Under the pieces are notes generated by a model, which made no database searches, was not told where the DNA came from, and worked only from the letters and a program-made list of their open reading frames with translations. Source: a virus. From it: a stretch of 33,908 nt of DNA. The DNA is taken from positions 62,074 to 95,981 of IMG/VR virus record IMGVR_UViG_3300030116_004105. The stretch is one strand, 5' to 3'. The stretch's first letter is position 1. Every line of letters starts with the position of its first letter. Shown here in pieces: positions 1,986-33,908 of this stretch. The position numbers and the translations under genes were made by a program.

Positions 1986-2121
1986 TGTCTATAATTATAT
2001 AAATTTGTATTAATCCTAAAAATAATTGCACTTCATAATACGGTGCATACTCTTCTGGTTGGAAATGTCTTACGCCAACTATTAATCCTTTTGACCATCC
2101 TATACCGAATTCAAACTTCAT
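1957..2121 (-). CDS. 54-residue ORF coupled to the giant gene by TAATG
   Basis: The stop of the 4898-residue gene and the start of this ORF share a base (TAATG), a classic coupling arrangement repeated elsewhere in this operon. The product starts MKFEFGIGWSKGLIVGVRHF, continues with an acidic PEEYAPYYE segment, a hydrophobic stretch LFLGLIQIYIII, and an Asn/Thr-rich tail, ending at TGA 1957-1959. Without it the 135 bases between the neighbouring genes would be unexplained. The pattern FGxGWxxG...YxEVQLFLGLIQ resembles small uncharacterised phage proteins I have seen, but I know no function. The 3' end overlaps the start of the 148-residue gene, suggesting a second coupled re-initiation. Moderate confidence because the gene is short. 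Confidence 0.7.
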   Translation of the reverse strand: MKFEFGIGWSKGLIVGVRHFQPEEYAPYYEVQLFLGLIQIYIIIDNGNTNNNIN

Positions 2122-11100: not shown

Positions 11101-14100
11101 GGATTAGTTACATGTATAAACCCACCTCTTTTTTCTGCCTCTAGAAGAGTATTGTATGCTTCTTCGTTTTCTTTTGTTTCCTCTATGCTTTGTTTATCTG
11201 TAGATATTTTTAACAGCTGTTGTTCTGCTAGTCCTCCATTTCTTAATCTAAATGAATTGAATAAGAAAGACATCATACCTTGTCCTACTCCCCCGCTTGT
11301 AAGTTCAGGGTTAACATGTGTCTCCCATTTAGATTTTCTACCTAAGTAAGCAGATCTATCTTTAGCGTTTGCTTTTTTACTAGCTAAAAATCTAAGTCCT
11401 TCTACAGGTACATCCATACCCATATCCCCTAAGTATTTTTTAACTACATCTACAAACTCATTGCTTCTTAGCTGGTTAGCTTGTTGGTATTTTTTATACT
11501 CTTTTAAATAATTGTTATATAACTTCTCTCTTTCTTTTTGATTTATTATTGTTTCTGGTATACCATCTAGAGTTATAGTTTTTACTAGCTTTGAGCTTTG
11601 TAGATTTCTAAACCACTTATTCTTTATATTAATAGTGGTGTTATATCTATCTACTAGTTGCATTTCTACATTACGTCCTAACTGTTGAGGATTTACTTTT
11701 AAATGTACAAAGTCAAGTCTTGTACCTGACATTGCCACTACAAACTGTCGACGTAATGTTTCTGATCCTCTGTCTAGCTCTTCTGCTATTTTTCCAAATA
11801 TAGGATTACTAGACTCCTCTTCTCTTGCTAATAATGCAGCTCTCTGATCTTTAAATGTACCAGGCACAGCACTTAGTGTAGCTTTTATTGTATCATAACT
11901 TTCTTGATACGGTATTGCTTTTCTAAAGTTTTTACCTAACCACGTTGTTTCGTTTTTAGTTGCTCTAGATAGTAATAGTTTTATACTAGAAGATGCTGTC
12001 CTTTTCTTATTTGTTTTATAGAACTCAAAATCATAAATATCTTTTACAAAGTCTTCCTGGGTAAAACCATCAACTTCTAAAGACTCTGCAAATATTTGAT
12101 CTATTTCTGCATCGGTAAGATCCTTTGATCTAAACCCTTGTTTTTGTGGTAGTATATCTAACTTTGCTAATGATTCTAACATTATACCTTCCACGGTAAC
12201 CTTACCAGACTTAGCGTCGTAGTTATCTACTAAATGTTTTAGAGCTTTCTTTCTTCTAGTATTTATTTTTATACCATCTGCTTCTTTATTTAGCTCATTT
12301 TTTATAAACTGAGATATTTGTTTAAAGTTAGCTTTGGTAATATTTTGTGAGTATTGTGCAAATATAGAACCTATGGCTTCTAACTGCATCGGTAGACTAA
12401 TTATCTTAGTATCAAAGAATCTTTCTCCTAACTCTTCACGCATAGCCCGCGCAATGGCATCATCTTTATAACCATCTAGTTGGTTTTCATTAGCCTGAGT
12501 TGATTCGTATATAGGTGATGCAAAAGATAATCCTTCTGCAGCCTGGTTTGCATTCTCACTTTCGTTTACTACTGCTCCCTGTTCTGCAAATGATGTATCT
12601 ACAATTACTAATGGCTGAGTCATGTATGTATACTCTGTCTCGCCTGCACTATTAATTAATGTATTCTTACCGTTTATATCAGTTTTTAAGAACTGTCCTT
12701 TAAATGCATTGTATGATGAGTGTGTACTTACATCTTCTACAACACCTTCTAAGTTCAGAATCACATCCTTAAACTCTTCTTTTTTATTTATGTTTTGTTT
12801 TTGTACACTAACAAGTTTTCCTTGTAGTAATTGAGCTGCTTCTTTTGCAGCGCCTTCTTCTCTAATATCTTTTATCTCTCGTATGTCATTATCTGTTACG
12901 AAAGAAGGATTGTTTTTAAAGAACAAAGGATCGTTTGTGTACATTACTCTTTGGTCTACATTTATTATCTGTAGCATTCCTTGTACCTGGCCATCTTCTG
13001 AAGCAGCCAGTTCCGGTGTATGTACTAATACAGCGCCTTGCTCAAAGTTATCTTCAACTTCTTTATTCCAGCTGTAGAATGTCTTTCTAGCAAATGTGTA
13101 TCTATTTACAAACTTATGTAGTCCTGCTGAATCTCCTTGTCTACCAAACTGTATTCCTGTTTGTTCTGTTATAGTATCAAACGTTTCTGTCTGGTTGTTC
13201 TGGAATGATGTTGCAGCACCTATTATAGTGTTTGCTTGATCTGCAGTTACATTATCCACAAATAATATTGTAGGGAATATCTTACCATTTGGTGTTGGTA
13301 AGTTAGCAACTACTCTACCATTAGTGTAGTTAGCATCTTTAAGATCTATTACAGTCTCTTCTTTTAGGGCAAACTCTCCTATGAATATTTCACCACCATC
13401 TACAATACCTAGTTTTATATTATCTACATCCGGTAATGCTTGGTCTATAGGTTTATTTATTTTTTGTAGTTTATTACCCACTAGTAATAAGTTACCTGCA
13501 CTGTCTTCTTGATATAAAGGTAAAACCTTACCATGGCCCTTGAATACTACAGTTGTTTTAACTTCATTATTTTGGTCAATGCTTCTAGCTAATGCTCTAC
13601 GTATGTTTCTAGCATTCTGTAGCTCTTCTTCTAGTCTACCAGGGGCCGTGTTTATCAGTCTTCCATTACTATCTCTAGCTTCTATCCAATCTGTAGTGTG
13701 TAGTGATGCTGATTTTATACCGTCTTGGTATACAGCTACAGCTAGATTATCTACGTCTTCATTAGGCATAGATATTAACTCTTCTTTTGTTAGAGCTACA
13801 TTATCACTATTAACTAGTCTTAGTACAACTTCACTATTAGGCATCATTGCTTTACTAGATTCTATAAGTTTAGATTCTTCAGTCTTAGTGTTAGATGTAC
13901 TTACTTTTTCTTTTACACCCTCTATTTCTATTTCTCTGTATTGCACAGATAAGAATGCAAGAGAAGAGGATGAGTTTGTTTGTCTTCCTGTTAGTGTTTG
14001 ATCATCAATCTCAAAGTATGGATTAAATGATTTAGGAGCTACTCTACTATTTTCTAAGTTTGTATCTCCAGTAGATTCTATGTCTTCTCCACCATTGTTT

Positions 14101-16817
14101 ACTTCTCCATCAAATACTGGAGATGAAAAGCTTGTAGATGTAACATTAACCTTATTTGGGCTGACAGATTGTTTTTCACGTAGAAGGGTAGAACGTTGTT
14201 TGTCATCTACTAAAGATCTTATTTCTCCTTTAGGGTCTACATATAACTCTTCCTCTTTTAGAAATTTTCGAGCTGCGAGTTCAATTTTCTCTGCTGTATT
14301 TTCAGTTGTTAAATTATAAATTGCTTTTATTATATCATTGAAAAACATTTTTTTAGCAGGATATGGACCTAAATCTCCTATTAGAGCTGATGTAGAACCC
14401 AAAAACTCTTTTTCTACGGTAGCTAATGTGCCAATTTGTTTAGCAATAAACTCAAAGTTACCTGGTTTAGCGGCGCCCATAGCATCACGATTAATTAACT
14501 TAGGTAATTTACCTTTTAGGTAATCCTCTATTTCAGTTGTAGGCATTATCTGATTTGTACTGGCAGATTCTTTTTTACCTATAGGTGATGTAGCAGTAAG
14601 TGGTGCTCCACCGGCCGCTTGTTGTGCTGTAGTTGCCTGTGTAGTTTGTGCAGGCTGACTATTTCTAGCTTTCTTTTTTGCAGCTTGTGTTTGTTGTTTT
14701 TTCTGAGCTTGTTGTTTAGCTTTCTTAGACGCTGCTCTCTTTGCTTGTTCTGCTTTCTCTTGAGCAATTGTTTGTTCAGCTTCTTGTTTCAATAACTCAG
14801 GATTACTTACTAGCTCTTGGTATCTAAGTGCATTGTTTTTACGACGTATTCTACCAGCTTCTAATAGACTTTCAGTTAGTTCTATCTTTGCATCTATATC
14901 ACCGGCGCTTTCTAGCTTAGATACTCTATCAAGAGTTTCATCTACAGTAATCTCATTAGCTGAAGCATAGTCTTTTACTTTTAACTCTAGAGTTTCTTCT
15001 CTTTGTTTTAGTCTTGTTTTTGCATCCTCTAAGTTTTTTACTTCTCCTGCTAACGTTTCATTAGTTTCTCTTGTTAGAGGTTTAGCTTGACTTCTAAGTT
15101 CTTGTATACTATTCTCAAAACCTTGCACAGTTCTTTGTAAAGCAGCTCTCTTGAATATATTATTACGTATCTCATGCAGATCTTTATCTTCTACATTGTT
15201 TTCAATATCTTCAAACAGCTTTTGTTTCTGTGCTTCTAGATCTGTAAGATTAGATTTATATTTTTCTATATCTTTTAGAGCATAGTATTCATTTAACTTA
15301 TTATTTACTAGTACAAATGCTTCCGCTTGACTACCTCTAAGCGGGTTAAGAAGTTCGTTATTTATAACGTCTTCTATATACTTTGCATCTGCTATGTATT
15401 CATCAGCTAGTTCTTTATAGTTAGATTCAAAACCTAGATTCTTTGCTTCTTCTTCTGTAGCATTTCTATAGGTTTCTAATACGTCCATAAAGTTTTGGGA
15501 TGTACCTTTTAGAGCATTCATTACTGCGTGCTCTCTAACTTGTTTTTTAGTTAGATCTTTTATTCTTTCTCCTGAAGCCCCTAAAGCTAACTCTGATTGC
15601 TTAACTTGTTCTAATGCATCTATATTATCTTTTTTACCAAATATAGACACACCTGTACCTACTACACCACCACCTAAAGCTCCTAAAAGCCCTTCAGTTA
15701 TACCTTGGTAACTTGTTGCATGCTCTACAAACTTTTCAAATCCTGGTCTATTATCAGGTACAACTTTACCAAGCTCTAGATCTGTTTTGTATTGAGCTTC
15801 TGTCTCTTGATACCCGGTGGTTACTTCTTCTAACCCTTCTGTAGTGGCTTCTATACCCAGCCTTTTTAGGCCGTCAAACATTCCTTGATTCTTTGTAGCC
15901 TCTTTTAACTTACCTAGTCTTCTAGTATGAGATACCCCTCTAAATAAATTAGCTTGTGATATAGATTGCCATAGTATATTTACTCTACCGCCTTGTATAA
16001 TCTCAGCTGCTTGTTTAGATAGTGTTCTTCTAGCTTCTTCTGCTGCCTGTCCAGGCTCTAATCCATTTGCAATGTATTTATTAGTAAGATCTTCTAGGTT
16101 TTCTTCTATATGTCTAGCTGCAGATACTGCATGCTCTCCATAGTTTAGTAGTGTTGCTGATCCTAAAGCGCTACCTGCATTCAAAGCAGATGCAGCGGCT
16201 GAACCAGATATAGATTTACCTGTTAAGTTTGCAGCTGTACCAAAGATAGCTTTACCTGCAATATTAGCGCCTTTAAATAAAGCACCTGCAGGTAAGAAAT
16301 ATCCAATAGATCTTAGAACTTGATCTGTATTTTGAAACCACCAATCTGAAGAACCTATAGTTGGTTCTTGTCCGGCTGTATATATAGGAAAGTCTTCTCT
16401 TACAGATTCTTCTAATCCTCGTAACCCTTTTGTAAGAAAGTTATCATAGTCTCTGTCTGCACCTTGTAGTGCTGCTATGTGGTTTTCTACATCTAATAAA
16501 TATGCAAAAGGTTCTACAGCAGCTACAGCTGCTCCTACAGTGCCTCTAACTAAAACATTACCTATCTTATTTAATGTCCCTTGAGCTTCGGACATCTCTT
16601 TCATTATGTTCATGCCTGGAATATATCTTACTCCTAGGCTTTGCTGCTCTTCTACTTCCTCTGAAGATAACAGACCTACATACCCTTCGGGTAAACTAGG
16701 TTGATCTAATTTTATTTCTGGTAGATTTAAGTTTAATGGTGGTAATTCAAATAGACTATCGTATTGAGATGCAGCTACTGACTTTCGCTTTTTATCTCCG
16801 TTAGTGTGTTGAGACAT
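2121..16817 (-). CDS. Giant virion protein with RNA polymerase and zincin motifs (crAss-like vRNAP)
   Basis: A 4898-residue protein, probably packed in the virion and ejected to transcribe early phage genes. From the N-terminus: Gly/Ala-rich hydrophobic segments (about 88-110, 169-226 and 373-393) that could interact with membranes; coiled-coil regions (about 400-680); a Lys/Gln/Ala/Thr-rich linker (675-751); and a polymerase core. The core has RIPGQG (from residue 2704) followed 39 residues later by GSDFDWD, matching the spacing and form of the beta' 'R-P..NADFDGD' double-psi-barrel motif and of crAss-like polymerases such as phi14:2 gp66. A conserved-looking AVDNANEAVLG block follows near 2925. 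A zinc-protease motif HEMLH is at 3606-3610. The C-terminal 700 residues contain a QFRTWAFEG block (about 4690) and a hydrophobic segment (about 4772-4793), like phage polyvalent proteins. No cysteine was found by eye. The polymerase call is from motifs; start and frame are clear. Confidence 0.85.
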   Translation of the reverse strand: MSQHTNGDKKRKSVAASQYDSLFELPPLNLNLPEIKLDQPSLPEGYVGLLSSEEVEEQQSLGVRYIPGMNIMKEMSEAQGTLNKIGNVLVRGTVGAAVAAVEPFAYLLDVENHIAALQGADRDYDNFLTKGLRGLEESVREDFPIYTAGQEPTIGSSDWWFQNTDQVLRSIGYFLPAGALFKGANIAGKAIFGTAANLTGKSISGSAAASALNAGSALGSATLLNYGEHAVSAARHIEENLEDLTNKYIANGLEPGQAAEEARRTLSKQAAEIIQGGRVNILWQSISQANLFRGVSHTRRLGKLKEATKNQGMFDGLKRLGIEATTEGLEEVTTGYQETEAQYKTDLELGKVVPDNRPGFEKFVEHATSYQGITEGLLGALGGGVVGTGVSIFGKKDNIDALEQVKQSELALGASGERIKDLTKKQVREHAVMNALKGTSQNFMDVLETYRNATEEEAKNLGFESNYKELADEYIADAKYIEDVINNELLNPLRGSQAEAFVLVNNKLNEYYALKDIEKYKSNLTDLEAQKQKLFEDIENNVEDKDLHEIRNNIFKRAALQRTVQGFENSIQELRSQAKPLTRETNETLAGEVKNLEDAKTRLKQREETLELKVKDYASANEITVDETLDRVSKLESAGDIDAKIELTESLLEAGRIRRKNNALRYQELVSNPELLKQEAEQTIAQEKAEQAKRAASKKAKQQAQKKQQTQAAKKKARNSQPAQTTQATTAQQAAGGAPLTATSPIGKKESASTNQIMPTTEIEDYLKGKLPKLINRDAMGAAKPGNFEFIAKQIGTLATVEKEFLGSTSALIGDLGPYPAKKMFFNDIIKAIYNLTTENTAEKIELAARKFLKEEELYVDPKGEIRSLVDDKQRSTLLREKQSVSPNKVNVTSTSFSSPVFDGEVNNGGEDIESTGDTNLENSRVAPKSFNPYFEIDDQTLTGRQTNSSSSLAFLSVQYREIEIEGVKEKVSTSNTKTEESKLIESSKAMMPNSEVVLRLVNSDNVALTKEELISMPNEDVDNLAVAVYQDGIKSASLHTTDWIEARDSNGRLINTAPGRLEEELQNARNIRRALARSIDQNNEVKTTVVFKGHGKVLPLYQEDSAGNLLLVGNKLQKINKPIDQALPDVDNIKLGIVDGGEIFIGEFALKEETVIDLKDANYTNGRVVANLPTPNGKIFPTILFVDNVTADQANTIIGAATSFQNNQTETFDTITEQTGIQFGRQGDSAGLHKFVNRYTFARKTFYSWNKEVEDNFEQGAVLVHTPELAASEDGQVQGMLQIINVDQRVMYTNDPLFFKNNPSFVTDNDIREIKDIREEGAAKEAAQLLQGKLVSVQKQNINKKEEFKDVILNLEGVVEDVSTHSSYNAFKGQFLKTDINGKNTLINSAGETEYTYMTQPLVIVDTSFAEQGAVVNESENANQAAEGLSFASPIYESTQANENQLDGYKDDAIARAMREELGERFFDTKIISLPMQLEAIGSIFAQYSQNITKANFKQISQFIKNELNKEADGIKINTRRKKALKHLVDNYDAKSGKVTVEGIMLESLAKLDILPQKQGFRSKDLTDAEIDQIFAESLEVDGFTQEDFVKDIYDFEFYKTNKKRTASSSIKLLLSRATKNETTWLGKNFRKAIPYQESYDTIKATLSAVPGTFKDQRAALLAREEESSNPIFGKIAEELDRGSETLRRQFVVAMSGTRLDFVHLKVNPQQLGRNVEMQLVDRYNTTINIKNKWFRNLQSSKLVKTITLDGIPETIINQKEREKLYNNYLKEYKKYQQANQLRSNEFVDVVKKYLGDMGMDVPVEGLRFLASKKANAKDRSAYLGRKSKWETHVNPELTSGGVGQGMMSFLFNSFRLRNGGLAEQQLLKISTDKQSIEETKENEEAYNTLLEAEKRGGFIHVTNPYDGPNRERAAYGLLKLTVDFGGALYGDSFRDAKGNLIYPFQNHFGMSRTLADYIQDKNLLNDLLSLSYNKNSVWGQGLQNDDKYLELLMFDSTIFNANATNRKEQGKFLQEITLFNAFANQGNKDAYFFPITTADKDIAPIIKAPRLTNTVENIRTENGKVTDILDPALEQIYNYAIDEYNRIENYKEIEGVNRGPYEEGAKYFYMFNYLNAYDPNQENVFDAQDPIEFIRATVKQNVINQINSHIDRLQELGIEEKFLDKRYINKKFGKQSAFYKTKADKLAGAIADYNLNYIVSNNEVVKLFGNDPAHAFKRSKKPGATLKDDIKETLNNYEKRKADLISPASTPQYTMPSVTIATANDAVKDGIERTDAQEYGTIAEMVESKLSAGKLPKDISDKILSAYNAAKNDPDNVRNFFKLNEALTKEEINKYKKIMMADKPVFVQNDIRVDQDSNNKLFRKSHIRYLWPEETTGYGLDNIRVAMENTGIDRLGHMTSDKTGAVNPINIYDANGKVRSLPEVTAEMERGRRSISRSGLGIQQEKGTDTGENAYSSQLDVLAFDDMLGKTLSTTGESYSDLRDQKEELHKKFMQLGAKGLFDKLGIKVSPDGSAYVPNPTTLAKMLKEEAIARKWTDKDISELALKDVSGAVERVFKSPLIFNHARKNIDSLVLSLVNKAIIKIKIPGESLVQASSAGFEARGGFGWDQFVSSGELDKIKNGITLIETENAFDESVGLQGVRKGKDGKVLPAQIFISPVFTDSNGKSVDLSSKKYTTITNGIRYLRTDILPQELRERILYRIPGQGKPSVVPVEIVGFLPKTSTSSVIVPDQVIDQMGSDFDWDTAYTYFKQFEVNKDGTVKIKSDLSELQKLQDEYYELFKKIIFDETTRKATSKLDNNDLKQAADVVDGILGKESEINDPSFVTTNIDNTISQRTGKQLIGPASLAAVMHAALQGKNITINVSSRTQEPIPFIFFKGGVENKNLKLTNISSYRGKSYTTNALTDAIRSASDNIRSVQNAAVDNANEAVLGRAGINNATIDVALFTLMYKDQASADSIHGEQLVYFLRQEAIEEYTKQVDYYSAQIEGGFRTEEQIRNDAFNASMIILAQKAGLDPEADYTANLDQYRSTTDGEFMTFSSQEFLDQLRTRNKPNPSYYKTQMAILAGFKQLQNSSDPVRKLQRGIVSPRTKGIGSTIFEAQKRIDNMEAVFEKQLSTIGGVENLADGQLEEMYKQFAKVYTSLSEILPFSNRSHQRMINLWQQFTGNENVSQKLREDLFNSLLNKSFVRAFEKTFNEDATAARYRLLSDPDENIAARIEKVQESDFGRRNLFISRLLLNKPNKGVPASITYVNSKQDDIADQMAVDFVSLYESAEVGHRELFEDIVKYTYLTGGVQSSTNFSKFMNTAYLDQIGFYDALREEQKNLNSPTSPESINILELMVEYLQHNPNRAVALSRKELQDISVSPMRTIQFDGKTINYEFELPQPDNSNKFNRIVYQRDDGNLLYIEVIAAERPTGLELFQKIGVNKDGNVVFRRIGKKGYQTAGQGYSKVSEYSGVTKFLKDGRMITEESILPQNNIPKAVKTNVGVPQVSTTKAPTDISVYGLDPISMKYATPGRAGVKELLSAVMQDTQSKSLSRLATMLSKNIDTKGSAIKEILIEDGLVDRDGNSAYGLYRDGAVVINRETITRYPEKLQETILHEMLHGFLSSEVADSSSEFSRKVSYLTNAANSAFKAAVKKGEIEEGTVQYKTLQYAFSNPQEFVTNTMTQKEVQSFLNTVPGKKNLFERFKQLIKDFLKVLGVDLGVAVNKDSLLAESVDSIMSFIVEAPARKQATKTAQKAEQEAGVFPLNPYISEPRHVLASYTRMKNGEYTQEEFDKALQDYRDSQLFSLNYMAANKNKTGRVIDEVLAVYQERADKLKGKLTDKVIKTAAGKKMQERLNVYRDQISTLKSKKTYGNLDSIMSLQLGWANGIANSKNPTEVEIKEALNIVDMYDYTKVTSKYLDKTERKVGDRFNELLKSQSSLASNIKVNLLDKLIDMTVEVINQELPETEAVTAEQLKNIEGETYRKSRFLDLSKFSHPVVRMLDKYLKAANRNADTDIQSRFLEIESAMADIQNSAAFKKDPNLFFQKDDKGKLTGYFISPYSSAYNQARGKILGKYRAKMAKATRDSAKNIATVQLMRDLDSIEFAIDIRWFIDEEASFNSPFKSKQEYMEYLDQQIGDTARRDALIKEALQKYKKYKAAEDQRMMEIELEESNNAGNIEEFRATINSRQLRYKERYSPLYHLNSRYGGGKKLARNEGYKALVNVPLNKPKYYDSRYTAIQKDPQLKKFYDFYTSTMKDLITLLPEGLVATLPENFFPFAKRGFVEQIQNEGTSAIFSAMKGSKIADYLWNLDQDVTLNPQVATKGVRNPDTGEIEKNIPVRMLRGKADEKSYDIEKVMKMFAAMSVSYDYKSQVEDKILLLQRVIREAKEIQLDSTGSPMMRKISRALKLDSKVGGLKNTQEAVQYAIDSNLYGVSKDTVERGIVLSQKVAEVKQEFEQLQADYKTNKIDDSVYAEEKAKLDERLKELNKKPISYRKPLERLVEYTQLKGLGWNLMSGVNNLSFGTIANFVHAAGNEDYSTEQLTKAYALMFKEYVPGTANKAEKLAEKYGILFEQLDTYYGKTKKTRYKYMSKLNPFFLQTSTEYMNQIAPMVAKMLNTKIDDKGNTLWDIYDNEGSIKEEFKSLESDWTMKVDAETQNKFTEFRDATIEMNKVNHGNYDPNSALLIKKSVWGRIGTQFRTWAFEGLNTRWGGKVYNAQLGRYTEGRYMSFGKVGLKGSLEMFGKSILNTLTLGYGVSEESMRGDIKDDLTFANMRKNMAGLKFYLAVMAAGNLLRALGADEDDKETEKVYRLLQNTFYRLEQDGEFYARPSTAMEVLRNPAPVLKTVKDFSNAATATYDYIDDKEGYEESRRDPLNKKWMKVVPFGNSIRSIDYLMETQIEKD
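5985..6002 (-). other. Zincin motif HEMLHG (residues 3606-3611)
   Basis: The segment ETILHEMLHGFLSS forms the typical helix of an HExxH zinc metallopeptidase: His3606 and His3610 as zinc ligands, Glu3607 as general base. It follows a beta-rich stretch (GAVVINRET) as in zincin folds. A third zinc ligand cannot be assigned by eye; FSNPQEFVTN downstream (Glu in a helix) is a candidate for a gluzincin/MPTase-like third ligand. Confidence 0.7.
8577..8591 (-). other. Polymerase catalytic motif DFDWD (residues 2743-2747)
   Basis: Codes for Asp2743-Phe-Asp2745-Trp-Asp2747 inside GSDFDWDTAYTY. In multisubunit RNA polymerase beta' and in QDE-1-like and crAss-like single-chain polymerases, the three Asp of DxDxD bind the catalytic Mg. 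All three are kept. The fourth position is Trp instead of the Gly of cellular enzymes or the small aliphatic residue I recall for crAss-like proteins. Confidence 0.8.
14565..14795 (-). other. Low-complexity Lys/Gln/Ala/Thr linker in the giant protein (residues 675-751)
   Basis: Residues 675-751 begin as a charged coiled coil (EQAKRAASKKAKQQAQ), turn into a basic AKKKA run and then a neutral TTQATTAQQAAGGAP stretch. This looks like a disordered hinge between the N-terminal membrane-like/coiled-coil part and the polymerase-bearing part, and is a plausible place for proteolytic processing (inference). Confidence 0.6.
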
Positions 16818-20081: not shown

Positions 20082-23000
20082 TTATCTTCGAGAAATTCTA
20101 AATAAGGTTTTTACGTAATGTAATAGTAGTTTAGTAGCGGAGTCTGAAGATAACAATACTTTTAAATATGTATCTCTGAATCTATAGCCTCCCCCTGTTC
20201 TTGGAACAGGTAATTTTGTTAACTTTTCTTTTACTTCTTTATATGGAAAATATGCAGGATTACTTTGACTAATTAATTCTACTAGTTTTGTAGCAGTAGA
20301 TGTTGAAAATATAGCCTCATTAATTATATCTTGCCCTGCTGTATCTGACTCTGCATACCATTCTAAATTATCAAATACTTTAGAATTTAAAGGATGCTTA
20401 TTTACTATAAACTCAATTTCAGTTTTAAAACTAGTATCATACCAAGTGCTAGAAAGATAAGAGTTATGCTCAAATAGTTCATCTCTTTTACTTTGAATTG
20501 GATTTACAGACAATAGATTAGTTGGAGCATTTATATACATAGGAGTGTAAAAAGAATATCTTGATGTAAACTTATTTATATCCTCACTAAATACTATTGT
20601 TTCTCCTGCATTTACTATACCAGGATCAAAGATACTATACAAGACTTCATTATTTTTATAGTCATATCCTAAAACTATTTTAGGAAAATTGTTTACAATC
20701 TCATCACTAGTTAAACTAAATAAAGATTTAACTCCATGTGTATCTGATATACTTTCTAGACCGTTTGCTCTAAAAGCATATGCTTTTTTATTATTTGAAT
20801 CAAACCAGTACAGTCCTCTAGGAGTTCCAACTACAGCTTTAAAAGAATTACACCCTATATTATTTGATATATACTGAAAGTCTTGTATAACAGATCCAGT
20901 TCCTAAAATAATAGAAGCTCCATCATTATCAACAACAGTAGACACAGGATTTATAGATAATTTACCAAATCCATAGTCTTGTAGAAAATACATTATGTCG
21001 TTATTAACGATTAACTTATTTATAGATCCTTTCAAACCTTCTAAATCTTTATAATTTTCAAGTCTAAATTTTCTCCAAGAATCCATTGCTGAGTTGTTTA
21101 TTTTTGCATCAGAGTATATAACTCTAGAATCAAATTTAGATGTCTCAACAAAGTTTAAAGGTTTAGGTAAAAACGCTTCAACATTATTTTCAATAGAGTA
21201 ACAAGTTTCTAAATCAAATGTATTTAGTTTAGTGTCTGTGTCTATATCCCAATCTGTTTTATTTGCAAAATGCCACCCTCCTCGTATTGTAGTATTGAAA
21301 TATGTTTCTACAGGAAAAGCATAACTAGTAGATTTAGTATCATAATATTCAGAAACAGGATCGTTTGTTGTGTTAAATAAGCCACCATCACCAATATCTC
21401 CTGACGCTCTTCTTATTTTTTCTATGTCGTACATAACAACATAAGTATCTCCTCCCCAAACATCATGTCTACCAAACTCATCTACTTGATCAGGTTCATT
21501 TATATTTATTAATGGCCCTGCTGGTATATAAAGATTATTTCTTCTTGCTTGCTCAGTGTTACCTCCATATTGAGCACTTAGTATTCTTTTTACAGAAGCT
21601 AAAATTTTACCTCTACCATTTTTAGCAATGTTTGTACTTGCAGTATTAAAAAATGCTGTGATTATAGGAGAATCTAGCGAGTCTAAATTAAAACCATATT
21701 CATCTAGTCTAACAAATAAAGTTTCTTCTCCTACACCAGTTACATAATGGTTGTTTGCTGTGATAGTGGTGCTTGAAAATGCTTTATTCCATAGTCCAAT
21801 GTTTGTTTCTTCATTATAGTTTGAAGTTTCTCCAAAAAAATCAGTTCCAGGTACATCAATATTTTCACCTGGCTCTAATTTTGTAGAGAACTCTACTCCT
21901 ATTTTTGAACTATCAAAAAAATCTGAATTAAGAGCTAATGTATGAGAACTAAATATAGCAGCTTCTCCTTTTGCTCCTCCTAAAAAATTATTATCAATTA
22001 CACCTGTAACACCCCCTATAAATTCTATGTAATTACAATTCCCTGCTGGGTAAGAATTACCAAATGCAAAGTCTGGAGAATCTATAGTAATATTTCTTCT
22101 GTGTGAGTCTGTAACTTGTGCAGCAGTTCCAGTACCACCTATAGGAGCTCCAATACCAGAACCAAAATCTCCAAAATCTTCTGGGTATCCTAAACGATTT
22201 CCAGTACTACTATTGTTAAATCCTATATATATGTGTTGTTGTTGCGCGTCCCACCATTGAGGCATAAAATTAATAACTCCTGTACCAAGAACTGTTCTAT
22301 CTCTATCTTTTCTTTCTACTCTAACAATTCTATAACCACTAATTTTATCTTCAAGCTCTTGGGGAATATTAACTGTAAACTTAATACCTAAAGCATATAA
22401 AGTATTTTTAGCAGAACTATTAAAATTATCATCATTAAAATTATAACTACTATTAACTTGATCATACCCGCCATTGTTATCAGGATCATAATATTCCATG
22501 TTTGCATAAGCGTTGATGTCACTTTCTGTATGATTATAATTAACTCCAGAACCAGTATCACTAGTTTGAGCTAATGTATAATTATATATCCCTCCGTACA
22601 ACCCGTCTTTGTGATCGTAGTCTCCATAGTTTGGAAACTTAATATCACCTATCCAATTTACAAATCCTGGATTACCGTATTTATCGTATAGTACAACCCC
22701 AAATCTATATATTTCATTTCTATGATACCCTACAAATTCAGATGCATTTCTTGGAGATTTATAATCTCCTTTAAAAAGAGTATCATCATCATCACATCCA
22801 GCTTGATAAAAGTTTGATTTAACAAAGGGAGCTTGATCAGGTATTGATGAAGATGAGTTACCATCTAATTGTTTTTTAAAAAATTCATACTCTACGTTTG
22901 GCCCTTCTCCACCTAAAGTTATTCCATCTTTTTTAAATTTATAATGTAGTTCTCCAGGAATAGCTTCTTCACTATCTATGTTATAAGGGTTAATAGCATC

Positions 23001-24281
23001 TATATTTTCTTGTTGTGAATAGGTAAAACTTCCTTGTAAGTTTATAGGATCAAAGTTTTCATCTACATATGTAGTCATTTCTCCATCAACTTCAGACTCT
23101 TCTAAACTGAGTCTTGGGTATTTTTCTCCATCAGGTCTTACATATCTATAAGCTCTAGCATTAAACTCTAAATCAAAAGCAGAATATTCTAATCCGCCCA
23201 TAAAAAGTCTATTATCTTTAGCTTCTATTGTTTTAACCTTAGATGGTAGATCTATTATTTCTGTTATTTCTTCTGCTAACAGAGCTTCTCCAATACTAGT
23301 TTCATGTATAATTTCTACTTCTGTAGAGTTTAATATAACTTCTTCTACTATATAAGCACTATTTATAGAATTTTTAGCTGTTCTATATATTGCTGCAAGT
23401 TCTAAAGAATCATAATCATCATCGATATTTTCTATACGTACATAAACAGCCTTATCAGTTGCATCTCCTGCAATTGTATTGCTGTATTCGTTTTGGTTTT
23501 CTGGATCTTCTTGGTAATTCCAGTACAAGGAACCATCTACTATATGTATACCATTAGATAACGGTGAGAATCTTGATACTAGTCCTTGTTTTGTTTTTAG
23601 CCTATACGCATACTGATATGTTCCTGCAATTAAGGCTCCACTACCATCAACTTTAGTTACTTTTGGAGAAGTAAAATTTACTGGAACATTTAAGGATAAC
23701 TCTTCTGCTGGTAAATTTTCTAATTCAGCAGATTTTATATTTAAAGTTCTAGCTGGATTTAAATTATCTGTCCAATAAACCCTTTGTATATTTTCAGATT
23801 CATATATACCTACAGCTTCAATAGGGTAGTCAAAATTAAAATTTAACTCCTCAGACACATATATTACTTGAGCTGCCTCACCATAATTATTTAAGTCAAC
23901 TGTATATATTAAATCTACCTTTACATCTTGTGCAAATATTCCACCCTCAAAAAGAGTTCCTGTTCCTATAGCATATAAGATTAATGTATTTCTTATTGTT
24001 GTGTGTCCTATTATAGATACGTCTAAATGTTGAAAGTCCTGAGCAATAGGTACAAATACTCCATTTATTAGGCTAAGTTCATAATTATAAGGATATAGGT
24101 ATCTAAGAGTTTTTATTTTTTCATTACCATCTACAGTAGCAGCTATTGCAGATTCTCCTTCACGTCCCCCAGAAACAATTCTTATATTTTTAGCATCTGT
24201 ATAAGATCCATCTTGTGGTATAGTAGAACCTAAATCTGATTGTAGGCCGTTTTGAAATGTATTTATATGCTGATCTTTCAT
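20082..24281 (-). CDS. Tail muzzle/nozzle-type protein (crAss-like 'stabilization' protein)
   Basis: A 1399-residue beta-rich protein expected to form the distal tail tube, comparable to T7 gp12, P22 gp10 and the muzzle of crAss-like phages. The N-terminus has the typical pattern IPQDGSYTDAKNIRIV. An internal block near residue 520 reads RNEIYRFGVVLYDKYGNPGF followed by NWIGDIKFP, which I recall from crAss-like members. The C-terminal part has repeated blade-like strands (IMYFLQDYGFGKLSINPVS, IILGTGSVI, RGLYWFDSNNKKAYAF, KIVLGYDYKNNEVLYSIFD) typical of the propeller-like portion. A GCDDDD stretch near residue 510 is strongly acidic. Four cysteines are seen, unlike the cargo proteins it would guide out. 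ATG overlaps the upstream gene's stop as TAATG. Confidence 0.8.
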   Translation of the reverse strand: MKDQHINTFQNGLQSDLGSTIPQDGSYTDAKNIRIVSGGREGESAIAATVDGNEKIKTLRYLYPYNYELSLINGVFVPIAQDFQHLDVSIIGHTTIRNTLILYAIGTGTLFEGGIFAQDVKVDLIYTVDLNNYGEAAQVIYVSEELNFNFDYPIEAVGIYESENIQRVYWTDNLNPARTLNIKSAELENLPAEELSLNVPVNFTSPKVTKVDGSGALIAGTYQYAYRLKTKQGLVSRFSPLSNGIHIVDGSLYWNYQEDPENQNEYSNTIAGDATDKAVYVRIENIDDDYDSLELAAIYRTAKNSINSAYIVEEVILNSTEVEIIHETSIGEALLAEEITEIIDLPSKVKTIEAKDNRLFMGGLEYSAFDLEFNARAYRYVRPDGEKYPRLSLEESEVDGEMTTYVDENFDPINLQGSFTYSQQENIDAINPYNIDSEEAIPGELHYKFKKDGITLGGEGPNVEYEFFKKQLDGNSSSSIPDQAPFVKSNFYQAGCDDDDTLFKGDYKSPRNASEFVGYHRNEIYRFGVVLYDKYGNPGFVNWIGDIKFPNYGDYDHKDGLYGGIYNYTLAQTSDTGSGVNYNHTESDINAYANMEYYDPDNNGGYDQVNSSYNFNDDNFNSSAKNTLYALGIKFTVNIPQELEDKISGYRIVRVERKDRDRTVLGTGVINFMPQWWDAQQQHIYIGFNNSSTGNRLGYPEDFGDFGSGIGAPIGGTGTAAQVTDSHRRNITIDSPDFAFGNSYPAGNCNYIEFIGGVTGVIDNNFLGGAKGEAAIFSSHTLALNSDFFDSSKIGVEFSTKLEPGENIDVPGTDFFGETSNYNEETNIGLWNKAFSSTTITANNHYVTGVGEETLFVRLDEYGFNLDSLDSPIITAFFNTASTNIAKNGRGKILASVKRILSAQYGGNTEQARRNNLYIPAGPLININEPDQVDEFGRHDVWGGDTYVVMYDIEKIRRASGDIGDGGLFNTTNDPVSEYYDTKSTSYAFPVETYFNTTIRGGWHFANKTDWDIDTDTKLNTFDLETCYSIENNVEAFLPKPLNFVETSKFDSRVIYSDAKINNSAMDSWRKFRLENYKDLEGLKGSINKLIVNNDIMYFLQDYGFGKLSINPVSTVVDNDGASIILGTGSVIQDFQYISNNIGCNSFKAVVGTPRGLYWFDSNNKKAYAFRANGLESISDTHGVKSLFSLTSDEIVNNFPKIVLGYDYKNNEVLYSIFDPGIVNAGETIVFSEDINKFTSRYSFYTPMYINAPTNLLSVNPIQSKRDELFEHNSYLSSTWYDTSFKTEIEFIVNKHPLNSKVFDNLEWYAESDTAGQDIINEAIFSTSTATKLVELISQSNPAYFPYKEVKEKLTKLPVPRTGGGYRFRDTYLKVLLSSDSATKLLLHYVKTLFRISRR

Positions 24282-29486: not shown

Positions 29487-30650
29487 TTATTTTAAATTAA
29501 CTTGTAAATATCCTTCACATCCTTTTTCTCTGTTCCATATATAAGCCTGCGCTTCTCTTTTACTATGATACCCCATCATTTTATGCCAGGCATCATGTGT
29601 TGCAATACTTGGAAGGAATCTAACTTTTACTCCTTGGTAGGTATTGACAATTTCTCTGTGCTGATGTCCGCAGTGCACTTCTCTGTGCTCACACTCTGCA
29701 AACATTGCTGGCCTTTCGGTTGCCATGAGAAGGGGCATGTCTGCCGGCTTCTCTTTATCCCCATGTGTAAACATAAGCATATTGTTTCCGTATTTGTAAT
29801 ACTTTCTTGACTCATAACTATTATATACTGTCACTGGTTTATAATTTCTATACCAAGCTTCTATTACTTCTCCTATATAAAACATACGTTCAAAGTCATG
29901 GTTACCTTGCACCACTATAACATCTACAGGTGCAAATGCAGATAGATAATCTATTGCTGTAACTAGTAACTTCCAGTAACCTCTAAAGGTTTGTTGCCAT
30001 TCTTCAGCATCATGCTGTGGTGTACCTTTAGTGGTAGCTCTACTATATCCTTCAGAGTTAAGACCATCGTTACCAATAGGTAGTATAAATCTTTCTATGT
30101 TTAATCCTTTGGCTTTTCTATGTAACTCTTTTACAGTGTTCATAAAATCCAAATTATTATCCTCTTGAGATATAGCCCCTATCTTACCGTAATGAAAATC
30201 AGGTAAAGATATTTCGTAGGCTACAGGAGATCCCTCTGTAAGGTTGTAGTTAGGAACTGCAACCTCTGGGATATACTGTTTCATTTCTTCAAAGAACTCT
30301 TTTTTAAACTGCTTAAGATCAAATCCATTTTCTTTTGTTACTACAGAAAACCTATATTCTCCATTAGCAGCTTGCCAGTGTTTGACTGACTTAACATCTT
30401 GTTTTTTTATTCCCCTCTCTTTTAGATGTAAATCCAGTTCGGGTATATATAAAGGATCTATATCCCCTATATTTTTTGTTTCGTTTACATTATCATTACT
30501 ATCCTTCCATCCGTATCCTCCTGCGTATTTTCTGACTCCTCTAACAACCTTTGCTATATTGCTTTGGTCTATACCTAATGCACCACTTGCTTCATAGATA
30601 CTAGAGAATTCATCAATAACGTTTCCTTCTCTGTCTAACTGTTGTATCAT
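29487..30650 (-). CDS. NUMOD1 - metallophosphoesterase fusion protein
   Basis: A 387-residue protein with two modules. Residues 1-50 match a NUMOD1 DNA-binding element (DREGNVIDEFSS, EASGALGIDQSNIAKVVRG, AGGYGWK), usually found in homing endonucleases and other mobile-element proteins. Residues 145-387 carry all motifs of a calcineurin-like metallophosphoesterase: DFH (Asp151, His153), GND (193-195), GNHD (249-252), HGD (296-298) and GHQH (328-331). These bind two metal ions and hydrolyse phosphodi- or monoesters; the substrate is not evident. The DNA-binding domain suggests action on DNA (inference). It lies between the holin and the connector gene and overlaps the holin stop by ATGA. An intact motif set suggests an active enzyme. 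Confidence 0.9.
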   Translation of the reverse strand: MIQQLDREGNVIDEFSSIYEASGALGIDQSNIAKVVRGVRKYAGGYGWKDSNDNVNETKNIGDIDPLYIPELDLHLKERGIKKQDVKSVKHWQAANGEYRFSVVTKENGFDLKQFKKEFFEEMKQYIPEVAVPNYNLTEGSPVAYEISLPDFHYGKIGAISQEDNNLDFMNTVKELHRKAKGLNIERFILPIGNDGLNSEGYSRATTKGTPQHDAEEWQQTFRGYWKLLVTAIDYLSAFAPVDVIVVQGNHDFERMFYIGEVIEAWYRNYKPVTVYNSYESRKYYKYGNNMLMFTHGDKEKPADMPLLMATERPAMFAECEHREVHCGHQHREIVNTYQGVKVRFLPSIATHDAWHKMMGYHSKREAQAYIWNREKGCEGYLQVNLK

Positions 30651-31033
30651 TGTTTTTTAATTTTTTCTATACTTCTTCCAGCAAAATAAGCACCGTACAC
30701 GGTGATTAATAGTGTCTGGTAGATAGGAATATAAGCCGGAGCTATTTCAAATCCTCCTGCATTCCCATCAAATATAGAAATAATTACAAACATTGCTGTT
30801 AAAAATATACATATCAGCGGTCTAATGTTTTTACTTAGCCAGTTATCGGACTTCATATCAGCCTCCCAACGTCTAGTAACTTGTTCTTGTGCTTGAGCTT
30901 CAGCTTGCATAAGAACTTCTTCCATAGCCTGTTTAGCAGCTAATCTTTCTTCTTCAGTAGTAGTTAGATTATCTATTACTCCTCCTACTTTTTCTATAAC
31001 GTTTCCGCCTAAAAATTTTAATAATTTACTCAT
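30647..31033 (-). CDS. Holin, GTA/3TM-like
   Basis: A 128-residue membrane protein next to the M15 peptidase. The N-terminus is amphipathic (KFLGGNVIEKVGGVIDNL), followed by a charged helix rich in Glu/Gln/Ala (30-60), then WLSKNIRP and two transmembrane segments (about 72-88 and 102-118), and a basic end (GRSIEKIKKQ). The WLSKNIRPLICI pattern with flanking helix is typical of the phage 'Holin_3TM' type, which forms the inner-membrane lesion that releases endolysin. Start overlaps the peptidase stop as TAATG, and the stop overlaps the phosphoesterase start. Lysis pairing strengthens the call. Confidence 0.8.
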   Translation of the reverse strand: MSKLLKFLGGNVIEKVGGVIDNLTTTEEERLAAKQAMEEVLMQAEAQAQEQVTRRWEADMKSDNWLSKNIRPLICIFLTAMFVIISIFDGNAGGFEIAPAYIPIYQTLLITVYGAYFAGRSIEKIKKQ

Positions 31034-31503
31034 TAAAGTGCTTTTATATTATCACTGGCATGTCTATAAGCTGTTTTACCTTGATCGTTTTTATAAGCTT
31101 CTAGTACTTGCTTTCTATTTTTGCTTGAACTAAATGATATATGTATCCATGCAAAATCAAACTCGTTTATCATTTGATCAAATTCTAAACCTGAGTCTAG
31201 CACCCAATCATAGATAACTTTATTATTCATTTCTCCATCTTTCCAAAACTGCAGATCCAGTGCTTCACCTTTACAGTGTTGCGAGCGGCTACTTCCCCCG
31301 ATAGCACGATTAAGTTTCGGGCTGCGATAACCACTGCTAATACGGATAGGACCGATAGCATCGCGCATAGGCTGAACAAGCTCTGTAATGATAGTCTGCA
31401 GATTAGCCAGGTGTTCTTTATCTGGTTCATTACTTATTCCTTTTCTTCTTGCTGTATTACTTCGAGTAATCTCTGACAATACAAAATTCTTACTTAGTCT
31501 CAT
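31033..31503 (-). CDS. M15-family peptidase, probable endolysin
   Basis: A 156-residue peptidase_M15_3-type D-Ala-D-Ala carboxypeptidase-like protein that would cleave peptidoglycan peptides. Visible motifs: SSGYRSPKLN (Arg60), SQHCKGEALDL (His76 and Asp83 as zinc ligands, H-x6-D) and AWIHISF (His121, third ligand), with Glu114 or Asp116 as the likely catalytic acid. It has the size of a complete single-domain enzyme and no signal peptide, so release needs a holin; the holin gene follows by TAATG. Together they form the lysis cassette. Confidence 0.92.
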   Translation of the reverse strand: MRLSKNFVLSEITRSNTARRKGISNEPDKEHLANLQTIITELVQPMRDAIGPIRISSGYRSPKLNRAIGGSSRSQHCKGEALDLQFWKDGEMNNKVIYDWVLDSGLEFDQMINEFDFAWIHISFSSSKNRKQVLEAYKNDQGKTAYRHASDNIKAL

Positions 31504-31512
31504 AATTTATAT

Positions 31513-31848
31513 TTAAAATGCTTCCATTACAATTTCGTCTATAGACTCTTGCACTTCTTTTCTAGTGGCTTCCATAGTCATCATAATATTTGCTTGAAAT
31601 CTTTTTACTTCTTCGTTATTATTAAATATCACAATAGTGGGAACTACCACTATTTTATATTCTTTAGACCACCTAGAGTCAGATGTTATATCTACTCGTT
31701 CTGTTTCACAGTCTGATAACTTTGGTAACCATTCTACCTGGTTAGCTGCATTAAAACTAGCATTAAACTCAACAGCAACCATTCCATCAGGAAAGTCTTG
31801 AGCCATAGCGCCAGTGTAAATACAAAATAAAACAAATAGTTTTTTCAT
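31513..31848 (-). CDS. Exported thioredoxin-fold protein without CxxC
   Basis: A 111-residue protein. A signal peptide (MKKLFVLFCIYTGAMAQ, cleavage before Q17 or D18) sends it to the periplasm. The mature part has the thioredoxin order: strand VAVEFNASF, a helix, strand TERVDIT, and VVVPTIVIF with the cis-Pro (Pro70). The place of the WCxxC redox centre is occupied by SFNAANQ, so no catalytic cysteine pair exists; the only mature cysteine (Cys47) lies elsewhere. A binding or chaperone-like role rather than a redox role is likely (inference). It lies between the small membrane protein and the endolysin gene, with 6-10 base gaps. Confidence 0.75.
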   Translation of the reverse strand: MKKLFVLFCIYTGAMAQDFPDGMVAVEFNASFNAANQVEWLPKLSDCETERVDITSDSRWSKEYKIVVVPTIVIFNNNEEVKRFQANIMMTMEATRKEVQESIDEIVMEAF

Positions 31849-31854
31849 AAGATA

Positions 31855-32139
31855 TTATTTTAAGTCATCTATCTTTTCCTCAAGACGTAGCATATGCCCT
31901 TTAATTTCTTTTACATCGTCTTGAGTTGTCATAATAGTTTGACGAATTAATTGATCCTTCATATCATACTCCATGCGAGTAATCTCAGGATCTGGTGGCT
32001 TAGGTAATTCCTTTGCCTCTGATATATCTGATTGTAGTGTAAACCACATACCTACAAGAGTGAAGATTAACACTGCTATACCTGCTAATGTTTTTATACT
32101 CAGTTTTAGAGTTGTGTCTTCATTTATTTCTTTTGCCAT
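31855..32139 (-). CDS. Small single-TM protein with coiled-coil tail
   Basis: A 94-residue protein with a short charged N-terminus, one membrane segment (about 16-35, SIKTLAGIAVLIFTLVGMWF), a Pro/Asp-rich spacer (PKPPDPEITR) and a C-terminal amphipathic coiled coil (about 58-94, KEIKGHMLRLEEKIDDLK). The topology N-in with a periplasmic coiled coil resembles inner-membrane spanins or small lysis-regulating proteins, but I see no clear homology. It lies two genes before the endolysin, so a lysis accessory role is possible (inference). Confidence 0.65.
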   Translation of the reverse strand: MAKEINEDTTLKLSIKTLAGIAVLIFTLVGMWFTLQSDISEAKELPKPPDPEITRMEYDMKDQLIRQTIMTTQDDVKEIKGHMLRLEEKIDDLK

Positions 32140-32141
32140 CT

Positions 32142-33179
32142 TTAAAATATTACATAGTTAAGGCCAACGCTAAAGTTGTGCCATTGTCTGTTCCAATACT
32201 TATTGTATCTACCTTCTATAAATACACCTAAGCTTTTATTAAATCTATATCCATATATAAGTCCTGCTGAATAATCTAACCATTGTTTACCCTTATAATT
32301 ATAATAAGAGTATTCGTTACCTGTGTCTATATGATAAGGCATAAGGTTACCCCAGCTATGAAACCAAAAGTCTTTTGTAAAGTGATAGTAATCAAATCCT
32401 AATACTGCAGAGTATTCAACTATATTAGAAAGTGCAGATCTTTGCGCTTCTACATAATCATCTATTACTTGTGGTATAACAACTTCTTCCCATACCTCTT
32501 GACTAGTTGCTACTACCTCTCCATTGGGTGCTGAATATTGTCCATCTAATGTTATAGTGTATCCCTCTTGAAGTGCCAAGTATGTATAGTGTAATGTCCC
32601 ATTGTCCAGCACCCAGTCTGCCAGGGGGTCAAATCCATATGGCTCTGCAAGTCGCTGTACTGCACCTACGTTTACAGATAGTTTACCTGCTTCACCTATT
32701 TGCAATCTAAATCTTTCTGATGCTTCAAAGTATTTTATGTCTGCAAAACCATCTTCAAGATACTCTATTTTACCTACCCAGCTATCTGCAACATATCTTA
32801 CAAAATGATGCTGGTTAGTAAAATTAACACCTAAACGGCGTACAAAATCAGCCTCGAATAAATACTCAAAGCCATCGACTCTACCAATTGTGGCAGCATC
32901 ACTGTATGAATTTTCTGTACCATTATAAAAAGTAAGAGCCCTGTTTTCATATCCAAATCGTTTTATTTTTCTTATACCTATAGATAATGTATAATCAAAA
33001 GGTGTTTCTATTGTTTGTTCTTCTAGTGTACCAGATGTAATAGACCATATCTGATCATCACCTAATGATGTACCACCATTAACTGCAGCATAAAATGTAG
33101 AGTATTTAAATATTTTATGTAAACCTTGTGCGTTTCCTAAAAAAGGAATAAATACTAATATTAATAATAATTTTTTCAT
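32142..33179 (-). CDS. Exported outer-membrane beta-barrel-like protein
   Basis: A 345-residue protein with a clear Bacteroidota signal peptide (MKKLLLILVFIPFLGNAQ). The mature part alternates hydrophobic and polar residues in likely beta strands with many Tyr/Trp/Phe (FYAAVNGGTSLG, FDYTLSIGIRKIKRFGYENR, FSVGLNYVIF) and ends in an aromatic residue, as outer-membrane barrel proteins do. A helical acidic insert lies near residues 230-265 (EVWEEVVIPQVIDDYVEAQ). No named family is recognised. It is ATGA-coupled to the T9SS-sorted protein upstream. A phage gene of this kind might alter the host surface, for instance to block further adsorption, but it could also be a virion or lysis part; these are inferences. 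Confidence 0.65.
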   Translation of the reverse strand: MKKLLLILVFIPFLGNAQGLHKIFKYSTFYAAVNGGTSLGDDQIWSITSGTLEEQTIETPFDYTLSIGIRKIKRFGYENRALTFYNGTENSYSDAATIGRVDGFEYLFEADFVRRLGVNFTNQHHFVRYVADSWVGKIEYLEDGFADIKYFEASERFRLQIGEAGKLSVNVGAVQRLAEPYGFDPLADWVLDNGTLHYTYLALQEGYTITLDGQYSAPNGEVVATSQEVWEEVVIPQVIDDYVEAQRSALSNIVEYSAVLGFDYYHFTKDFWFHSWGNLMPYHIDTGNEYSYYNYKGKQWLDYSAGLIYGYRFNKSLGVFIEGRYNKYWNRQWHNFSVGLNYVIF

Positions 33180-33908
33180 TTCTTTAATACTTTTCTAGTG
33201 CTAGTGTTACCATTATATGTTACGCTAAAATTATATATACCTGCTGGTAATAAACCTACATCTAATTGATTTAATCCTTTATGCGTTTGATTTTCTTTTA
33301 TTTTAATTACAAGTTTACCAGATACATCATAGACTCTTATACTTACAGGACCATTTGTTAATATGTTTAACATATCTCCCATAGGATTTGGATACATAAC
33401 TACATTATGCCCTCTAAGTAAATCTCTTGTATCTAATGGACTATCCCAAGAACAGCTCCAATATATCTGCTGACATTTATCATCCCATTCATTATTACAA
33501 CAATAAGGATCTATTAAAATAACCCAAGCATAGCACGTGTCATTCAACCAATAAGGAATACCAGGACCATCAATACAACCTGCATCGTATAAACAACTTC
33601 CATCATCTGTATTGTATATAGCATCATAATTGTATCCAAGCGGGTCCATACATCCTTCTAATACATCTATACATCCTCCATTGTCTGTGTTAGCTAATGA
33701 ATCGTAATTAAATGCTGTATCGTCAGTACATCCATAAACTACATCTACACATGAGAAATCTTCTGTATTTGCATCTGGACTGTAATTAAAAGCATTAGGG
33801 TCTGTGCATCCAGGTGTCACCGGAATACACGATCCATTATCGGTGTTAGCAACAGGGTCATAATTAAATGCAATAGTATCAGTACAACCAAATATAAAAG
33901 GTATACAG
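33176..33908 (-). CDS. T9SS-sorted GCTD-repeat protein, 5' end cut by window edge
   Basis: The frame is open to the right edge, so the N-terminus is missing; a GTG at 33820 is internal to a repeat and not a likely start. At least four 26-residue repeats of the form GCTD..AFNYD..ANTDNGSC are followed by a Cys-rich stretch (PYCCNNEWDDKC). The last 75 residues form a T9SS type A sorting domain: VVMYPNPMGDMLNI, VRVYDVSGKLV-like, LPAGIYNFSVTY and a basic end RKVLKK. In Bacteroidota this domain directs cargo through the outer membrane to the cell surface or medium. A phage gene carrying it suggests use of host T9SS in the infected cell (inference). Paired cysteines suggest disulfides in the exported state. 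The upstream half and any signal peptide lie outside the window. Confidence 0.8.
   Translation of the reverse strand, partial: CIPFIFGCTDTIAFNYDPVANTDNGSCIPVTPGCTDPNAFNYSPDANTEDFSCVDVVYGCTDDTAFNYDSLANTDNGGCIDVLEGCMDPLGYNYDAIYNTDDGSCLYDAGCIDGPGIPYWLNDTCYAWVILIDPYCCNNEWDDKCQQIYWSCSWDSPLDTRDLLRGHNVVMYPNPMGDMLNILTNGPVSIRVYDVSGKLVIKIKENQTHKGLNQLDVGLLPAGIYNFSVTYNGNTSTRKVLKK
33578..33889 (-). repeat. Four tandem 78-base (26-residue) GCTD repeats
   Basis: Units run 33889-33812, 33811-33734, 33733-33656 and 33655-33578, each exactly 26 codons and starting GCTD or GCMD with a second Cys at unit position 21. A further partial unit (ending C-I-P) continues to the window edge, so the full array is longer. 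Coding tandem repeat, not CRISPR. Confidence 0.85.

Follow-up and report, generated by a model that had tools for sequence, protein, structure and literature searches.

A phage gene cassette encoding a predicted type IX secretion cargo and an outer-membrane β-barrel in marine crAss-like and T4-like phages

The cargo gene and its neighbours

The window, i.e. the whole stretch of 33 908 nucleotides that was analysed, corresponds to bases 62074-95981 of a virus record of 95,981 bases (G000:C1); its right edge is the contig end, and a gap of 10 N (G000:C1:62064-62073) lies directly to its left. Because the window stops at the contig end (G000:C1:95981), the gene of interest is open at its 5′ end and only its 3′ part is present (243 aa, 33176..33907, minus strand, as are all the cassette, peptidase and holin features described below). 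The initial annotation had considered that the sequence to the right might be bacterial, but none exists, the window ending with the contig. It had also recognized at the C-terminus the pattern of a type A sorting domain of the type IX secretion system (T9SS), and this was confirmed by profile searches: for the domain at residues 169-243 (33179..33403), TIGR04183 aligned along its entire length (model positions 1-72 of 72) with residues 171-243, at 46.1 bits (E 3.4e-12, cut-off 23), and PF18962 gave 48 bits (cut-off 27). As sequence matches, such scores are far beyond chance. The predicted structure is a seven-strand Ig-like sandwich (pLDDT mostly 87-94), which matches the C-terminal domains of NucA (8glk_D), RemA (8gl6_D) and mirolase (8qb1), the former two having been solved within T9SS translocon complexes. 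The best PDB sequence match is also 8glk_D, a weak one (E 0.005). DUF3244 Ig folds match the model equally well, so that the predicted fold by itself is not specific; profile, modelled fold and C-terminal position are nevertheless in agreement.

Upstream of the sorting domain, two further regions were delineated. A Cys-rich domain (CYAWV..YCCNNEWD..C, residues 110-154, 33446..33580), mostly helical in the model and absent from the initial annotation, forms a separate unit after the repeats; few residues of the cargo family are as well conserved as those of CYAWV and YCCNNEWD. The repeats themselves (33581..33889) comprise three units of 26 residues (GCTD) and one of 25 (GCMD), each with one Cys pair in conserved columns. 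They are thus real at the protein level, as initially described, and only there: repeat finders run on the DNA detected none, because the units are too diverged at that level.

The stop codon of the cargo gene overlaps the start codon of the next gene in an ATGA (33176..33179). This second gene (32142..33179) encodes a 345-aa outer-membrane β-barrel with a signal peptide (MKKLLLILVFIPFLGNAQ) and a C-terminal Phe. Its AlphaFold2 model, built from 41 sequences, looks like a membrane barrel and is of moderate quality (mean pLDDT 70.9). By fold, the porin NanC is the top PDB hit (E 4.4e-5), ahead of weaker ones such as autotransporter barrels and OmpG; PorV from the T9SS complex (8gl6_F) comes in at E 6e-3, which does not exceed the level of ordinary porins. 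The model would therefore resemble barrels in general rather than a part of the T9SS. The window protein has no NCBIfam match at E 0.1 and no PDB sequence match, no meaningful Pfam match was found for 41 members, and no useful PHROG family matches the barrel. An assignment to PorV, PorP or SprF was considered and is not supported by profiles, PDB sequence or fold. A likely distant relative is found in BFVD, the viral model A0A516LKJ4, at 22% identity and E 1.9e-23.

Two small genes follow. The first (31855..32139) encodes a 94-aa protein that is predicted to span the membrane once and has a coiled-coil-like tail; by eye its layout is i-spanin-like, and it has no useful family match. The second (31513..31848) encodes a predicted secreted thioredoxin-like protein of 111 aa, which scores below the cut-offs of the thioredoxin families; the CxxC active site is absent from it and from its listed relatives. 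Next come an endolysin-type M15 peptidase (31033..31503) and a three-TM holin (GTA_holin_3TM, 30647..31033), both neighbours of the cassette in the near clade. The gene beyond the holin, at 29487-30650, encodes a calcineurin-like phosphoesterase or an exonuclease; its N-terminal domain is NUMOD-like, of the homing-endonuclease type.

The phage of the window is crAss-like by its gene content: there is a muzzle gene at 20082-24281 (PF25731, E 3.1e-166) and, in the same, apparently chimeric record, a TerL gene of PHROG 6681 at C1:40780-42891, while the putative portal and capsid genes of this record were named solely by where they lie and by their sequence. A single ORF of 4898 aa, without a PHROG match, occupies positions 2121-16817 downstream of the muzzle genes.

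Complete copies of the cargo

The contig does not contain the missing 5′ part. A complete homologue lies in the same record (C1:8015-10489, minus strand), an 824-aa protein encoded between phage genes. It begins with a signal peptide (MLRLINILLLLTLTVNAQ|D, ending NAQ|D), followed by an LNR-like Cys-rich N-domain (recognized by eye), further beta domains, the GCTD repeats and, last, the sorting domain. Searched with this protein, IMG/VR returned 72 loci, most of which encode the whole from signal peptide through tail. Both TIGR04183 and PF18962 are matched by 33 of the 41 aligned cargos, and a hydrophobic signal-like N-terminus, called by a simple hydrophobicity rule rather than by SignalP, is present in all 85 distinct complete cargos among the relatives. 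Complete copies are flanked on both sides by crAss-like genes, which bears out the view that this is a phage gene. The repeat stalk is conserved and the N-domains that it carries are variable: they are LNR-like (judged by eye), with a MAM domain in one member (E 1.1e-18) and weak AMPK1_CBM/CBM48 matches in a few. Body and tail are both under purifying selection. For the body, dN/dS is about 0.05-0.19; for the tail it is about 0.05-0.4 in the majority of pairs that carry sufficient synonymous change, pairs with almost none in the tail giving no usable ratio or, once, 1.1.

GCTD repeats are not confined to these cargos. The same record contains, in its structural region, an ORF of 3070 aa (G000:C1:12666-21878) with six GCTD-like repeats and 85 Cys, without a recognizable signal peptide, and the repeats also occur in an ORF of Synechococcus phage S-CAM3 annotated as virion structural protein.

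The presence of two copies in one record of 96 kb raises the question of its integrity. The segments C1:5416-8747 and window 30646-33908 are 86% identical at the DNA level from holin to cargo, and the record carries two cassettes and two muzzle genes, its ends (G000:C1:1-8747; window 30646-33908) resembling two different crAss-like phages. However, the ring genes just past the holin are only 28-31% identical at the protein level and the two muzzles align over 42 residues only. A true duplication, with two cassette copies per genome, is rejected because of this low ring identity and because each of the 27 other records searched has a single barrel. The simplest reading of the sequence is that the record is probably a junction of two related crAss-like phages sharing a recently exchanged cassette. 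This does not affect the cassette itself, since it is complete in many other contigs.

A four-gene cassette

The cargo is not a lone gene. It is a member of a cassette of four, found in many marine viral contigs, whose other members are the outer-membrane β-barrel, the 94-aa membrane protein (TM94) and the thioredoxin-like protein without CxxC (TRX). A tagged cargo lies within 3.5 kb of the barrel in 136 of 143 barrel loci, a set that includes duplicates from the same contig (94 are left after removal of identical barrels); the other seven all run off the contig on the cargo side. The barrel search behind this count kept the best 80 of at least 589 contigs, and its profile was built from loci originally found via the cargo, so that cargo-less barrels may occur among more remote ones. 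The prevailing order is cargo-barrel-TM94-TRX (112 loci), the others being barrel-TM94-TRX-cargo (20), TM94-TRX-cargo-barrel (3) and cargo-barrel only (1). Barrel and cargo are on the same strand in 94 out of 94 distinct pairs, and a 4-base overlap between the two genes, like the ATGA of the window, is found in 70 of the 77 pairs where the cargo comes first. Such an overlap is a predicted translational coupling of cargo and barrel.

The surroundings are less constant. In the near clade the order is cargo-barrel-TM94-TRX-M15-holin, but the peptidase and the holin are not adjacent to the cassette in more distant carriers. In crAss-like records generally, the cassette lies beside structural and lysis genes.

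Carrier phages

The initial annotation had suggested searching other Bacteroidota phages. The cassette occurs in diverse crAss-like phages and also in T4-like contractile phages. A muzzle match was obtained in 21 of 28 records. Contigs with a terminase of only 24% identity were at one time taken as non-crAss; this was rejected, since these terminases belong to the same PHROG 6681 and most of the records have a muzzle. A clearly different phage type is represented by four records only (G014, G019, G022 and G023; 113-145 kb), which encode a T4-type Gp23 capsid protein and a contractile sheath, and in which the terminase PHROG of the crAss-like phages found no match. One of these T4-like records (G022) carries a cassette, L131, with a barrel 82-84% identical to that of the window; it adjoins CobS-like AAA and peptidase genes, not lysis genes.

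Among crAss-like phages, the barrels are in many pairs far closer than the terminases (e.g. 80-90% versus 45-58% identity). In the barrel tree, phages do not group according to their context labels, which are themselves rough. These identities suggest that the cassette moves between phage groups; being common to crAss-like and T4-like contractile phages, it is not tied to one virion type. We consider it possible, though on balance not probable, that the full picture is that of a mobile cassette of four genes passing from crAss-like to T4-like phages, or the reverse, in marine Bacteroidota; by supplying the T9SS-tagged surface protein as well as an outer-membrane partner for it, the phage would possess a two-partner display system that remodels the infected cell by way of the host T9SS. 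In a phage collection of 50,697 records, the cassette is absent from every record; cargo, barrel and 94-aa protein have no homologues there except for the GCTD repeats alone, and searches with the 111-aa protein found only catalytic-type Streptomyces phage thioredoxins and one weak match.

Tags and hosts

Not all cargos carry the type A domain. Eight of the 41 aligned ones (L060, L062, L064, L065, L070, L071, L073 and L074) have no TIGR04183 match and end instead with a short tail, LLxVTDILGRPxxxxKNKLLLFIYSDGSVxKKI (..TDILGR..NKLLLFIYSDGSV.KKI); L160-L165 are listed with a short C-terminal tail as well. In the phage cargos, neither TIGR04183 nor Pfam recognizes this tail. It is frequent in potential hosts: it was found in 34 of 79 Flavobacteriales genomes (marine-type), with up to 51 copies in one, and several of the fetched Flavobacteriales proteins that bear it carry signal peptides. 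Ten genomes rich in short tails were tested; all ten encode SprA, together with 25-64 type A tails each. The short-tail phages therefore use another C-terminal tag that is also used by hosts. It may be an uncatalogued sorting tag. That it is a T9SS signal would be our guess; its sequence is similar to the final 40 residues of a sorting domain.

SprA is also encoded in three of four metagenome-assembled genomes (MAGs) whose bins hold cassette contigs, a link that rests on the binned contigs. One of these, L081, was binned in a MAG of the archaeon Candidatus Nitrosopelagicus, very likely a binning error. Of 60 Flavobacteriales genomes, 59 lack the barrel, and the sole match is a phage-like contig (L080).

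Possible roles of the cassette

Use of the host T9SS, as put forward in the initial annotation, remains the natural reading because a phage gene, a sorting-domain profile match and the signal peptides of full-length relatives come together. Sec export of the cargo across the inner membrane is supported by those signal peptides, and we judge it very likely that the T9SS of the host, with the C-terminal domain as sorting tag, would then carry it across the outer membrane. The barrel, the single-span protein and the non-catalytic thioredoxin-like protein may help the cargo to fold, to dock or to stay on the surface; for the barrel, co-conservation and gene overlap with the cargo point to a role in surface attachment. 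The infected cell would most likely be covered by a disulphide-rich stalk of GCTD repeats bearing a variable N-terminal domain, and the virus probably re-coats its host from outside. The tag, the signal peptides of relatives, the conservation of the cassette and its phage context can be read from the sequences; actual export, docking on the barrel and an effect on adsorption are what we infer.

What would such a coat do? All three functions initially proposed, i.e. coating of the cell, block of adsorption and change of adhesion, are plausible. The coat might mask or displace host surface adhesins, resulting in less adsorption of further phages and less re-adsorption of progeny. This idea is attractive because the T9SS adhesins concerned are suspected phage receptors: SprB and RemA have been named as possible receptors of flavobacterial phages (PMC13288928). 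No domain with known adsorption-blocking activity was found in the window part of the cargo, and the adsorption role as such is held tentatively, at something below an even chance. In crAss-like records, the position of the cassette beside structural and lysis genes suggests that its action may come late in infection, past the point where superinfection exclusion of the classical kind would be of use. Such a late-type neighbourhood would agree better with keeping progeny from re-adsorbing than with early exclusion. The explanation taken as a whole, a T9SS-exported cargo that with its barrel partner coats the cell and lowers adsorption, comes close to an even call without quite reaching it.

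Another possibility is that the exported cargo is a surface adhesin, which would stick infected cells to particles or to other cells and so raise transmission. The variable N-domains on a conserved stalk (LNR-like, one MAM, weak AMPK1_CBM/CBM48) would suit it, but the window gene contains no validated adhesin domain and the N-domain matches concern few members, so that we find it unlikely. Still less probable is a competitor, occupying the translocon and thereby blocking the export of host receptor adhesins, defence or gliding proteins: a near-standard type A tag could play that part in cells where 25-64 type A cargos depend on the same route, as in the short-tail-rich genomes, yet competition needs neither a large multi-domain body under constraint nor a dedicated barrel. 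We give equally little credence to a lysis or egress module, in which the four proteins would breach the outer membrane in concert with the adjacent M15 peptidase and holin. The near-clade gene order and the i-spanin-like layout of the 94-aa protein speak for it; however, peptidase and holin are elsewhere in distant carriers, an outward sorting tag is unnecessary for lysis, and the CobS-like AAA and peptidase neighbours of L131 argue against a role in lysis, as they do against one in the virion.

The latter role would have the Ig-like domain and the GCTD repeats decorate the particle, the resemblance to a sorting domain being fortuitous. Repeats of this kind do occur in the 3070-aa ORF of the structural region and in the S-CAM3 virion structural protein. 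But all complete cargos have signal peptides (by the simple rule), phages with crAss-like and with contractile T4-like virions share the cassette, and where the tail has been swapped, a different host tag rather than a virion domain has taken its place; a virion component is very improbable. As to an assembly artefact, bacterial DNA misjoined to a viral contig, the gene does lie at a contig end and the record is seemingly chimeric. This reading is already refuted by the relatives, and its chance is practically nil: complete copies stand beside phage genes in many independent viral contigs and the barrel is missing from nearly all Flavobacteriales genomes, its one occurrence being on the phage-like contig.

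Masking of surface adhesins by an exported coat, the reading that we prefer, would touch on a subject about which almost nothing is known, namely how phages change the surface of infected Bacteroidota cells. An intact cassette across marine phages with different virions, equipped with a host export tag, points to a strongly selected surface function, and it offers a concrete target, with a single tag, a single partner barrel and a single phenotype, be it export, adsorption or adhesion. In addition, phage genes may carry the tag type of their host group, which could aid host prediction.

Relation to known systems

An outer-membrane β-barrel gene beside a T9SS cargo gene recalls SprB/SprF. The window barrel has no NCBIfam, Pfam or PDB sequence match that would place it with PorP/SprF or PorV partners. 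For the proposed role, an analogue is Llp of phage T5, a small, periplasm-facing envelope lipoprotein of surface exclusion, which blocks the receptor and protects progeny from debris. The likeness would extend to the role only, the cargo being a large T9SS-tagged surface protein with a barrel. Bacterial NucA and RemA (8glk, 8gl6) and mirolase (8qb1) similarly combine an Ig-like C-terminal sorting domain with a Sec signal peptide, whereas here the protein is phage-encoded, lacks an enzyme domain and has its own phage-encoded barrel alongside.

The initial annotation had called the use of host secretion by a phage unusual. The T9SS tag stands, but this is not the first case, phage cargos with T9SS sorting domains having been reported in two earlier papers. 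Metagenomic Bacteroidetes phage genes with type A sorting domains were described for Cryophage (PMC7468147, Nat Commun 2020), whose authors proposed export by the host and also suggested superinfection exclusion. The cargos there, which differ from strain to strain, are an endoglucanase, a GH39 and a PA14 protein instead of a Cys-rich GCTD-repeat protein; the portions consulted mention no partner genes, in contrast to the single cassette kept here across phage groups. In crAss-like contigs of cluster 2 (PMC6949934, Viruses 2019), ORFs with T9SS sorting domains lie near head genes; these are gut contigs with BACON domains, and in the portions consulted no barrel partner or link to a cassette is described. 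In the literature searched, which consisted mainly of open-access journal papers, neither a conserved cassette nor a barrel partner is described. Phage-borne T9SS cargos are thus already known, and it is the dedicated partner genes and their spread across phage groups that appear new. Weak sorting-domain matches were also noted in two uncultured phage records of 635-642 kb, at LR745206.1:298441-298605 (E 1e-3) and LR756502.1:325937-326140 (E 2e-2).
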